Shown here piece after piece: positions 36,312 through 41,221 of a stretch of 64,000 nt of DNA. Where the stretch lies: NCBI GenBank assembly GCA_026418625.1, contig JAOABA010000046.1, positions 1 through 64,000 on the forward strand. The letters run 5' to 3'. Under the pieces are notes generated by a model. The model was not told the DNA's origin. It saw only the letters and a list, made by a program, of their open reading frames with translations, and did not search any database. The stretch is from Candidatus Kapaibacterium sp. (GTDB taxonomy: Bacteria > Bacteroidota > Ignavibacteria > Kapaibacteriales > UBA2268). A program made the position numbers and the translations under genes. Within the stretch, counting starts at the first letter, position 1. Each line of letters opens with the position of its first letter.

Positions 36312-37652
36312 ATGAAATTTTATATAATTATCTTTTTTCTTTTTTTTAATCTCTCTTTTCTTTATTCCCAAGAAATTAATATCCCCGCTGATACATCTGG
36401 GAAAATATTTGTTATTACAGAGGAATTGTCTAATAAGCTTGGAATCTTCAAAGAATATGAAAATTTTCAGGATGCCAGACTTTTCAAAATTGACGACTCT
36501 AATTATTTTCTTGAAATAAATTACAAAAGTGAAGATTTATTATTAAGAAAAAGAATCAACTATACTAAATCACAACTTGACTCATTCAGGCTCGATTTTT
36601 CAAACAGATTAGCTTTGATGGATTCAATTAAACCCCTTGACCAAAGCGGAAGACTACCTCTTATTGTCTCATCAACGATCCTTGGCTTAGGCTTTTGGGG
36701 TTGGGCTTTGCCAACGATGCTCGAGGTTGATAATGGAGCTGTATTCACAGGTTTATATTTGCTAACAGCTGGAACTTCTTTTGCACTTCCTTACTATTTA
36801 ACTATGAATACTAATATTCCTAAAGCAGTTGGGACTTATACTTCGTTTGGCGGTTTTGCTGGGATTTTTCATGGCTTATTTTTATTTGACCTTGTTAATG
36901 GCGGAATATCTAATGCTCCATCAAGCTCTATTATCGGGACAATGTTATTTTCGAGTCTATCGGAAATGACGGTCAACAATATAATTTCGAGGAAAAATAA
37001 TTTTACAGACGGAAAATCTTCCACTATGATTAGCACCTCTGTTTTTGGAACTTTTCTTGGTTTAGCATTAACAGACTATTTGGCTCTATATGATACCCCA
37101 AGGCTTTGGGCAGGTGTTACTCTTGGAACAAGTATTCTGGGGTATTTGGCAGGTGATTTTCTTAGCAATAGACAAAGCTATTCCGAAGGAGATGCAACTG
37201 TTCTTACTGCTTCGGGACTTCTTGGAGCTGCACTTCCTATTAGTATTGTAGCTTTGACTGATCCATCTGATACTAAACCCTATTCCGCTGCTGGAGCTAT
37301 CGGTGCCTGTCTTGGCTTGTGGTTAGGTGATTTTCTTACTTCTAGTGTTGATTTTGAAAGCTCTCACGGTGATTATATAATGCTTGGAACTTTTGGTGGT
37401 GGTCTGATGGGAGCCGGAATTGGTTTAATTGTTACCTCTTCAGGCAAAAGCAGAAATTCTATACCACTTTTTGCAACAATAGGAGGTATAGCAGGTTTTT
37501 CTACACTTTACTTTAGTTTTAAGGGTAAATCGCCAAAGCCATCTTTCAGTAATATTGATTTTAAGTTCAATCCATTTGCTCTGTATGCCCCATTAATTTT
37601 CAAAAAAGATGATGTTTACACTCCACTTATGCAACTAAAAATGAATTTTTAG
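36312..37652 (+). CDS. Glycine-rich multi-helix envelope protein, unknown
   Basis: I do not recognise this 446-aa protein. It has a signal peptide (MKFYIIIFFLFFNLSFLYSQ), a soluble part to about residue 110, and then about ten hydrophobic glycine- and serine-rich segments that resemble each other (SSTILGLGFWGWALP, TASGLLGAALPISIV, GTFGGGLMGAGIGLIV). It ends in a strand-like MQLKMNF. The segments could be internal repeats of short membrane hairpins. It stands alone between a divergent VWA gene and the ArsR cassette. Confidence 0.5.
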   Translation: MKFYIIIFFLFFNLSFLYSQEINIPADTSGKIFVITEELSNKLGIFKEYENFQDARLFKIDDSNYFLEINYKSEDLLLRKRINYTKSQLDSFRLDFSNRLALMDSIKPLDQSGRLPLIVSSTILGLGFWGWALPTMLEVDNGAVFTGLYLLTAGTSFALPYYLTMNTNIPKAVGTYTSFGGFAGIFHGLFLFDLVNGGISNAPSSSIIGTMLFSSLSEMTVNNIISRKNNFTDGKSSTMISTSVFGTFLGLALTDYLALYDTPRLWAGVTLGTSILGYLAGDFLSNRQSYSEGDATVLTASGLLGAALPISIVALTDPSDTKPYSAAGAIGACLGLWLGDFLTSSVDFESSHGDYIMLGTFGGGLMGAGIGLIVTSSGKSRNSIPLFATIGGIAGFSTLYFSFKGKSPKPSFSNIDFKFNPFALYAPLIFKKDDVYTPLMQLKMNF

Positions 37653-37755
37653 AATCACCTTTTTGAAATTCCTCTTTCTGATTGATAGTTCGTTTGGTTC
37701 GCAGAAAAAGATTTTAAAGATTTTGTGTTATTATATTTTTTTGTTAATTTCGTCA

Positions 37756-37772
37756 ATCATCGAAATGATAAT
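37756..37772. promoter_or_regulatory. Candidate ArsR operator 1
   Basis: The 17-base imperfect palindrome ATCATCGAAATGATAAT lies 9 bases before the arsR start. It shares 15 of 17 bases with the perfect palindrome at 38138-38154. Position over the arsR leader fits autorepression by the encoded ArsR protein (inference). Confidence 0.65.
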
Positions 37773-37781
37773 TAGGACATT

Positions 37782-38126
37782 ATGGAAGAATTGACGAAAA
37801 TATATTCTGCTTTGTCAGACAAAAACAGGCTGAGGATTCTAATACTGCTCTCGAGGAAATCTTTATGTGTTTGTGAACTCCAAGCTATACTAAAAATCTC
37901 TGTTTCAACAGTTTCGAAGCATCTCTCTATTTTAAAAGAAGCAGGCTTCATCATAGACGAGAAGGATGGAAAATGGGTCAATTATAAAATAAATAGACTT
38001 AGCAAAAATCCATTAATCCATCAACTTTTAGCAGCAACAGAGGTTTATTTAAAAGATAATCATATTGTTTTGGATGACCTAAATAAAATAATTGATGTCG
38101 ACAGATATGAAATTTGTAGCAATTAA
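37782..38126 (+). CDS. ArsR/SmtB-family metalloregulator
   Basis: The 114-aa winged-helix repressor has ALSDKNRLRILILL, a C-V-C-E-L metal site (C29, C31) at the start of the alpha-3 region, and the recognition helix region SVSTVSKHLSILKEAGFI. CxC in this place is the trivalent arsenic/antimony or soft-metal site of many ArsR proteins. It heads a cassette with a CSC permease and redox proteins. Two 17-base palindromes flank the gene, which suggests it controls itself and the permease gene. Confidence 0.92.
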   Translation: MEELTKIYSALSDKNRLRILILLSRKSLCVCELQAILKISVSTVSKHLSILKEAGFIIDEKDGKWVNYKINRLSKNPLIHQLLAATEVYLKDNHIVLDDLNKIIDVDRYEICSN

Positions 38127-38137
38127 ATATTTCGCTG

Positions 38138-38154
38138 ATTATCAAAATGATAAT
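38138..38154. promoter_or_regulatory. Candidate ArsR operator 2
   Basis: The perfect 17-base palindrome ATTATCAAAATGATAAT (7-base arms, AAA centre) lies in the 45-base gap between arsR and the permease gene. It is almost identical to the site upstream of arsR. It may allow extra control of the permease segment. Confidence 0.68.
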
Positions 38155-39477: not shown

Positions 39478-39885
39478 ATGAAAAACTTTTTATTATCATT
39501 AATACTTACTATTATATTAACTCAACTTTCATTTGCCAATGAAAACAAAACAAAGATTGATGTCTTGTATTTTCATGCTACAATTCGCTGCCATGCTTGT
39601 TTAACAATTGAAGAATACACTCGAAGCATAGTAAACACAAGATATCAGAAAGAATTACAAGATAGCACGATAACCATTCAATCCATTGATTTCCTTGAAG
39701 AAGGAAATGAACATTTTCAGGATGATTATCAATTTGATACTCAAACCTTGATTTTAAGTAAAAAAGTTGATGGCAAAGAAGTAAAATGGAAAAATTTAAC
39801 CGAAATATGGGATCATTATAGTGATTTTTCAAAATTCGAAAAATACATTACTGAAGAAATAAATAAATTTTTAAAAGAATTATAA
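39478..39885 (+). CDS. Exported thioredoxin-like ArsF-family protein
   Basis: The 135-aa protein has a signal peptide (about residues 1-20) and a short thioredoxin-like domain with redox motif C38-H-A-C41 (RCHACL). It resembles the small proteins annotated as ArsF-like in ArsR/permease/CcdA clusters. It begins 13 bases after the permease gene. Its job is probably periplasmic thiol chemistry, fed by the CcdA-like protein encoded downstream (inference). Confidence 0.7.
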   Translation: MKNFLLSLILTIILTQLSFANENKTKIDVLYFHATIRCHACLTIEEYTRSIVNTRYQKELQDSTITIQSIDFLEEGNEHFQDDYQFDTQTLILSKKVDGKEVKWKNLTEIWDHYSDFSKFEKYITEEINKFLKEL

Positions 39886-39895
39886 AGAGTTAAAA

Positions 39896-40135
39896 ATGAA
39901 TATTAAAATTCTTGGAACTGGCTGTGCTAAGTGTGAAGCACTCGAAAAAAAAGTTCGCCATATTGTTGAGGCTCAAGGTATAAATGCCGAAATATCCAAA
40001 GTTACCGACCTTAAGCAAATAATGAGTTATGGTGTTATGATGACTCCCGGTTTGGTCATTAACGAAAAAGTTGTAAGCTTTGGTTCAATTCCACCCGAAA
40101 GCCAAATATTAAATTGGTTGAAGGAGAATAGTTAA
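39896..40135 (+). CDS. Small thioredoxin-like protein (MTH895/TM0996 type)
   Basis: The 79-aa cytoplasmic protein has the redox motif C10-A-K-C13 within ILGTGCAKCE, the cis-proline region MMTPGLVIN and the VSFGSIP end. This is the family of redox-active disulfide protein 2. Its stop (40133-40135) is directly followed by the next ATG, so translation is coupled. Confidence 0.88.
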   Translation: MNIKILGTGCAKCEALEKKVRHIVEAQGINAEISKVTDLKQIMSYGVMMTPGLVINEKVVSFGSIPPESQILNWLKENS

Positions 40136-40501
40136 ATGAAAAAATATTTCTTATTCCTGACACTTCTTCTTCTTGTCTCTCAGTATGTCTTGGTAGACGC
40201 TCAGGAAAAACCAAAAATTACTTTTATCCAGCTTGGCTCTGTTAATTGTATCCCTTGCAAAAAGATGCAACCAATTATGAGTTCAATCGAAAAAAAATAT
40301 AGCTTCCAAATCAAAGTAATTTTTTACGATGTTTGGAAAAAAGAGCATAAAGACAAAGCAAAACAATATAAAATCAGGTTAATTCCAACTCAGGTTTTTC
40401 TTGACGAAAGAGGAGAGGAAATTCATCGGCACGAGGGCTTCTACCCTGAAGAAGACATTGACAAATTTCTTCAATCCAAGGGTTTAAAACCTAAAAGTTA
40501 A
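40136..40501 (+). CDS. Exported thioredoxin-fold protein
   Basis: The 121-aa protein has a signal peptide (about residues 1-22) and a thioredoxin fold with C38-I-P-C41 and the cis-proline loop RLIPTQVFLDERGEE. It is likely a periplasmic thiol reductase or oxidase. Its ATG immediately follows the stop of the preceding gene. Confidence 0.87.
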   Translation: MKKYFLFLTLLLLVSQYVLVDAQEKPKITFIQLGSVNCIPCKKMQPIMSSIEKKYSFQIKVIFYDVWKKEHKDKAKQYKIRLIPTQVFLDERGEEIHRHEGFYPEEDIDKFLQSKGLKPKS

Positions 40502-40519
40502 TATTAATTTTTTTATATA

Positions 40520-41221
40520 ATGATTGAATCAATATTTACATTCCTGAGCGAATTGCTTTACCAGAATATATGGTTGGCACTTGTATCATCTTTTGCTTGG
40601 GGGATTTTGAGTATTCTGCTCAGTCCCTGTCATTTATCGAGCATACCTTTAATAATTGGCTTTTTGAGTTCACAGGAAGGATTAACTTTAAAAAAATCTA
40701 TCCAGTTATCATTAATTTTTGCGATCGGAATTTTAATTACCATTGCTCTAATTGGTGGAATCACTCTGGCAATGGGAAGACTGATGGGAGATGTAGGTTC
40801 AGTAGGAAATTATATAGTTGCTGCAGTTTTTTTTGTCGTTGGTCTCTATCTTCTTGAGGTTATTGTCTTGCCTTGGGATGGTGCGAAAATAAAAGGGACT
40901 AAAAAAACAGGTTACATTTCTGCATTCATTTTAGGGTTAATTTTTGGCATCGGGCTCGGTCCCTGCACTTTTGCCTTTATGGCACCTATTTTAGCCATTG
41001 TTTTTCAGGTTGCTACAACAGATACTTTTTATGCTGCTGGATTATTAAGTTCATTTTCGTTTGGTCATATAATCCCAATTGTCATTGCCGGCTCTGCGAT
41101 TAACTTGGTTCAGAGGTATCTTAATTGGTCTGAAAGCTCAAAAGCCACTAAGATTCTTAAAAAAGTTTGTGGTGTCTTGGTGATTTTTGGTGGAATTTAT
41201 CTAATTTATACTACTTTTTAA
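40520..41221 (+). CDS. CcdA/DsbD-type transmembrane thiol transporter
   Basis: The 233-aa protein has six helices and two conserved cysteines, C37 in LSPCHLSS and C149 in LGPCTFAF, as in CcdA. These proteins pass reducing power from cytoplasmic thioredoxin to periplasmic partners. It is the last gene of the cassette and suits supply of electrons to the two exported thioredoxin-like proteins encoded just upstream. Confidence 0.9.
   Translation: MIESIFTFLSELLYQNIWLALVSSFAWGILSILLSPCHLSSIPLIIGFLSSQEGLTLKKSIQLSLIFAIGILITIALIGGITLAMGRLMGDVGSVGNYIVAAVFFVVGLYLLEVIVLPWDGAKIKGTKKTGYISAFILGLIFGIGLGPCTFAFMAPILAIVFQVATTDTFYAAGLLSSFSFGHIIPIVIAGSAINLVQRYLNWSESSKATKILKKVCGVLVIFGGIYLIYTTF

Follow-up and report, generated by a model that had tools for sequence, protein, structure and literature searches.

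The canonical operator of the SmtB/ArsR family is a 12-2-12 inverted repeat, TAxAxTCAAATA xx TATTTGAxTxTA (PMC6555750), and the operators of the SqrR, BigR and YgaV repressors have the form ATTC-N8-GAAT (PMC9774250). In engineered reporters, the background is lowered by a second ArsR site placed behind arsR (PMC3918153, PMC5116461); bioreporters of this kind are those of Stocker et al. (2003) and of Merulla and van der Meer (described in PMC3918153, PMC5116461, PMC10310618). ArsR has been listed among the roadblock proteins (PMC10310618) and, in the lac case, the stalled polymerase is removed mainly by Mfd (PMC4132739). No report of a naturally bracketed arsR was found in the open-access literature, most subscription journals being outside the scope of the search.

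Here we describe a locus of Candidatus Kapaibacterium sp. in which the layout known from the engineered reporters seems to recur naturally, as judged from sequence. Within the analyzed 64-kb stretch of DNA (hereafter, the window), an arsR gene is flanked by two predicted ArsR operators, O1 and O2. The best reading, to which we assign a probability of about two in three, is that O1 controls initiation, whereas O2 is a promoterless auxiliary operator, i.e., a roadblock, that protects the efflux genes.

The arsR gene and its cassette

The regulator belongs to the ArsR/SmtB family by both profiles used, and no second ArsR homologue was detected in the genome at E <= 0.001. It contains a C29-V-C31 pair before the recognition helix, which is kept through its relatives, and lacks the third Cys of the E. 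coli-type CVCDLC motif, with Gln34 at that position. Cys112, near the C terminus, is common among the close relatives, which combine CVC with a C-terminal R-x-x-I-C motif that includes this residue and also lack the E. coli-type third Cys; this motif is a possible arsenical-binding site of a different kind.

The permease encoded next belongs to the Pfam ArsP_1 family (PF03773), with scores below the NCBIfam equivalog cut-offs for the SO_0444 Cu/Zn efflux transporter (101.8 vs 300) and SaoE (126.7 vs 325). The last gene of the cassette, for the CcdA/DsbD-like membrane protein, is also kept in the cassettes of relatives, and the nearest named relatives are candidate Kapabacteria and Ignavibacteria-type MAGs. 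Upstream of arsR, at 36312-37652, there is an ORF for a 446-aa membrane-protein-like product that matches no Pfam or NCBIfam family; of the compared cassettes, that of the sister species (L032) alone contained a counterpart (84% identity).

Table 1. Features of the arsR locus, with coordinates in the window
Feature	Position	Strand	Sequence or support
-33 element TTTG of the Bacteroidota-type arsR promoter	37722..37725	+	TTTG-N19-TAATTTCG, 9/10 consensus positions
-7 element TAATTTCG, overlapping the left arm of O1	37745..37752	+	9/10 consensus promoter
O1, predicted ArsR operator	37747..37766	.	ATTTCG-TCAATCAT-CGAAAT, perfect 6-8-6 dyad, axis 37756/37757; matrix score 24.8, top in window
Site 1 of the initial annotation (right half of O1 plus flank)	37756..37772	.	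ATCATCGAAATGATAAT
arsR, ArsR/SmtB regulator, 114 aa (CVC at residues 29-31, Cys112)	37782..38126	+	NF033788 84.2 bits (cut-off 55), PF01022 62.3 bits (cut-off 22)
O2, predicted ArsR operator	38129..38148	.	ATTTCG-CTGATTAT-CAAAAT, 5/6 arm pairs, axis 38138/38139; matrix score 22.2, second in window
Site 2 of the initial annotation (right half of O2 plus flank)	38138..38154	.	ATTATCAAAATGATAAT
ArsP_1-family permease, 430 aa	38172..39464	+	PF03773 239 bits
ArsF-family protein	39478..39885	+	NF040494 96.9 bits (cut-off 60)
ArsE/MTH895-family thioredoxin-like protein	39896..40135	+	TIGR00412 105.1 bits (cut-off 62)
Secreted thioredoxin-like protein	40136..40501	+	PF13098 46.8 bits; signal-like N terminus by eye
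CcdA/DsbD-like membrane protein, ArsG-like by position	40520..41221	+	weak DsbD-type matches only

A conserved dyad before and after arsR

The upstream regions of 99 arsR homologues were compared with shuffled sequences in an inverted-repeat test that assumes no motif. Inverted repeats are enriched only at the even spacers 6, 8, 10 and 12: perfect 7+7 repeats occur with spacer 6 in 22 loci, with spacer 8 in 28 and with spacer 10 in 20, against an expectation of approximately 2-3 (3.3 for spacer 8). There is no clear excess at odd spacers, including spacer 3, in these regions. The conserved unit is an even-centred dyad, ATTTCG-N8-CRAAAT, longer than the AAA-centred frame in which the two sites had originally been described. 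In close relatives, it takes the form ATTTCG-N8-CGAAAT, and in many distant ones ATTTGG-N8-CCAAAT (hereafter, the GG type). The arms co-vary across lineages (CG/CG, AG/CT, TG/CA, GG/CC; e.g., ATTTAG/CTAAAT and CGTTTCG/CGAAACG). In the upstream regions of several arsR genes (often in L034, L036, L037, L038, L041 and L044), a third, CRAAATG-like half-site continues the 8-bp period beyond the right arm, which yields two overlapping dyads and possibly accommodates a second, cooperatively binding ArsR dimer; the window contains no such half-site.

A symmetric matrix was built from 20 sites of other genera, with the genus of the window left out. In the scan of the 64 kb, O1 (24.8) and O2 (22.2) are followed by a third place at 11.5, and the best scores across 20 Markov versions of the window range from 9.6 to 18.3. 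O2 begins 3 bp past the arsR stop codon, before the permease gene, and the sister species retains both sites (O1, 23.4; O2, 20.6), with O2 at the same place. In the complete 3.3-Mb genome, the strict pattern ATTTCG-N8-CRAAAT is found at O1, at O2 and in three places inside coding genes, so that no wider regulon emerges from the exact matches. Given their top matrix ranks and the fact that they are the sole intergenic exact matches, O1 and O2 are both very probably operators of the window ArsR.

The second site recurs in other genomes. O2-like dyads are located within 85 bp past the arsR stop codon in 19 of the 97 loci examined; neither of two control segments of equal length gave any (0 of 97 each). 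The half-site type is the same at O1 and O2 in all 10 loci compared (Fisher p 0.005, with related loci counted as independent, as in all our p-values), as expected if one protein reads both. Such sites are present in Bacteroidota (including L124 and L134) and in one Marinimicrobia genome, and those of the GG type in Desulfuromonas, Nitrospirae, Fibrobacter and other MAGs. One locus (L093, 3028-3863) contains two divergently oriented arsR genes; a CG-type operator accompanies one of them and GG-type operators the other, and two identical GG-type copies lie after the second arsR.

A search for O1-O2 pairs that ignored gene positions, run over 395 Bacteroidota genomes, matched five genomes; the reversed control gave no match. 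Besides the window, three of these bracket an arsR, and the next gene, named from its translation and not by family search, is arsC (G393), ACR3 (G374) or ArsP_1 (G239); in the fifth genome (G115), one site alone adjoins an arsR. One Desulfuromonas genome (G440) contains exactly two matches to the strict GG-type pattern, O1 and O2 around arsR, and a similar pair search around this genome recovered three symmetric pairs, all around arsR (G440 and the new G809 and G620); asymmetric matches (G494, G799, G462 and G464) were treated as chance. In three further loci (L046-L048), O2 is followed by a gene for an arsM-like methyltransferase, named by reading. The variety of these next genes (arsC, ACR3, ArsP_1, arsM-like) suggests that O2 goes with arsR and not with any one downstream gene. 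Most loci of the window's own family (L033-L041 and L044) have O1 but no O2, which indicates that the latter is an optional layer rather than an essential one.

Promoter signals and alternative readings

The two sites differ in their promoter signals. Scored against the Bacteroidota promoter consensus, O1 of the window reaches 9/10 and O2 6/10, the latter without a suitably spaced -33 element; no sigma70 site was found at O2 of the window either. By consensus, O2 thus appears to have no promoter of its own. The contrast is sharper for the GG type: its O1 sites have a TTGACA-like -35 element at constant spacing and, within the 8-bp spacer, a TATATT -10 element, whereas the corresponding O2 sites lack both (p about 1e-5). 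Many of these O2 sites have instead a T-run ahead of them, immediately downstream of the arsR stop codon (p 7e-8), and the RNA fold before it is mostly ordinary. Because both contrasts, in promoter signals and in T-runs, were first noticed in the very loci on which they were then scored, and these loci are related, the p-values are indicative. The contrast in promoter signals was repeated in two fresh GG-type loci (G809 and G620). Runs of 7-16 T that lack a terminator hairpin, located directly downstream of the arsR stop codon or a short way past it and ahead of O2, were seen in L139 (G374), L134, L093, L064, L085 and L151. Such runs could aid polymerase release at an occupied O2; there is none before O2 in the window.

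These signals bear directly on how O2 would act. The initial annotation had proposed separate control of regulator and permease, which implies that the permease genes are driven from an independent second promoter that ArsR represses at O2. The low score of O2 in the window and the absence of both promoter elements from the GG-type O2 sites speak against this version, which we consider unlikely, albeit by far the strongest of the alternatives. The left arm of the operator resembles part of the -7 element, so that a weak promoter at O2 is hard to exclude, and O2 of L046-L048 gives an 8/10 Bacteroidota-like match, with TTTG at 20-21 bp, so that a second promoter is possible at some loci. What stands of the proposal is a modified form, differential control through blocked elongation: given that O2 is an operator, it probably functions mainly as a promoterless roadblock, since the absence of a recognizable promoter makes the blocking of elongation likelier than a second regulated promoter. 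Another possibility is that the same ArsR, bound to O1 and O2, bridges them into a repression loop, the axes being 382 bp apart; operator pairs spaced 350-380 bp do recur. This spacing, however, is set by the length of arsR, and O2 stays about equally far from the arsR stop codon (mostly 25-38 bp). Members of the ArsR family act as dimers and, to our knowledge, none is known to form loops, all of which makes a loop improbable.

The remaining alternatives concern the nature of the sites themselves. The two 17-bp sequences originally singled out share 15 of 17 bases, as had been described, and their joint pattern is matched exactly at these two places alone in the window. They had both been called symmetric, which is true of site 2, a perfect 7-3-7 palindrome, and overstated for site 1, in which only 5 of 7 positions pair. 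That the AAA-centred palindromes are the recognition unit is very doubtful despite the symmetry of site 2 and the shared bases: spacer 3 is not enriched in the 99 upstream regions (4 observed vs 3.3 shuffled at arm 7/7), and relatives conserve the left arm ATTTCG, which lies outside the 17 bases. It is hardly more credible that site 2 works at the RNA level, as a hairpin, attenuator or terminator, or that it has no function and arose by chance or duplication. Site 2 is able to form a 7-bp AU hairpin, and an ungapped 15/17 match between the 129 bp upstream of arsR and the 45-bp arsR-permease spacer was reached in 2 of 400 Markov shuffles, close to a chance level of 0.005, so that the similarity of the 17-mers alone is suggestive but not overwhelming. 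Nevertheless, folding at site 2 is ordinary (z -0.47), no terminator was found there, and the site recurs after arsR in other genera and phyla with the same half-site type as O1. The idea that the two sites are probable operators of this ArsR has gained strong support from the comparison, namely from the retention of the motif upstream of homologous arsR genes, its uniqueness in the genome, the agreement of half-sites and the gene-blind pair search, but their boundaries had been misplaced, the centres of the 17-mers lying 7.5 bp downstream of the conserved symmetry axes.

A predicted roadblock and its relation to known systems

We propose that ArsR dimers would bind the even-centred dyad at both sites. 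On O1, a dimer would cover the -7 element and the start region and so repress initiation at arsR (autorepression); on O2, ArsR would most likely act as a roadblock to RNA polymerase that reads through from the O1 promoter. Under leaky transcription, the regulator would then be made, but only small amounts of the permease, ArsF, ArsE and ArsG. Binding of an inducer to Cys29/Cys31, and perhaps to Cys112 as well, would free ArsR from O1 and O2 and thereby open the whole operon; the inducer is probably As(III) or an organoarsenical. More tentatively, a promoterless ArsR operator right after arsR might be a natural inducer-controlled roadblock in several phyla; in many lineages, where a hairpin-free T-run precedes it, ArsR and the T-run together might form a repressor-dependent terminator that separates the regulator from the resistance genes, whichever these are.

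Synthetic biologists added a second ArsR site to tighten arsenic sensors, and the sequences suggest that the same solution exists naturally in many lineages. The locus would provide a natural example in which elongation control by a one-component repressor could be tested. In addition, the comparison supplies an operator consensus for the CVC-type ArsR of Bacteroidota, and the two-site signature might allow metalloid operons to be found from DNA alone.

Among the systems described so far, the engineered arsenic bioreporters resemble the window in that a single repressor has its operator both at the arsR promoter and in the interval that separates arsR from the output gene; a second ArsR-type copy downstream of the promoter and the repressor gene is indeed present here (O2, score 22.2). 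Unlike in the reporters, the layout in the window is natural, belongs to an uncultured member of the Bacteroidota, uses another operator sequence and has a predicted function. As in the canonical 12-2-12 arrangement, O1 is an even-centred inverted repeat that overlaps the promoter of an ArsR-family gene. By eye, however, neither O1 nor O2 shows the TCAAATA-type half-sites directed toward a 2-bp centre: the half-sites of the window are in the reverse orientation, with ATTTCG to the left of an 8-bp spacer and CGAAAT to its right, and a second, promoterless copy follows the gene. The SqrR/BigR/YgaV operators, which are also bound by ArsR-family repressors, are similar in half-site orientation and have the same 8-bp spacing, but the core in the window is TTCG/CGAA instead of ATTC/GAAT, and those regulators sense sulfide species, whereas the window ArsR carries a CVC metalloid-type motif. 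The cassette itself resembles the arsEFG and arsP organoarsenical cassettes in the presence of an ArsP_1 permease, ArsF, ArsE and a CcdA-like membrane protein behind arsR, and differs from them in that its permease falls below the SO_0444 and SaoE equivalog cut-offs.
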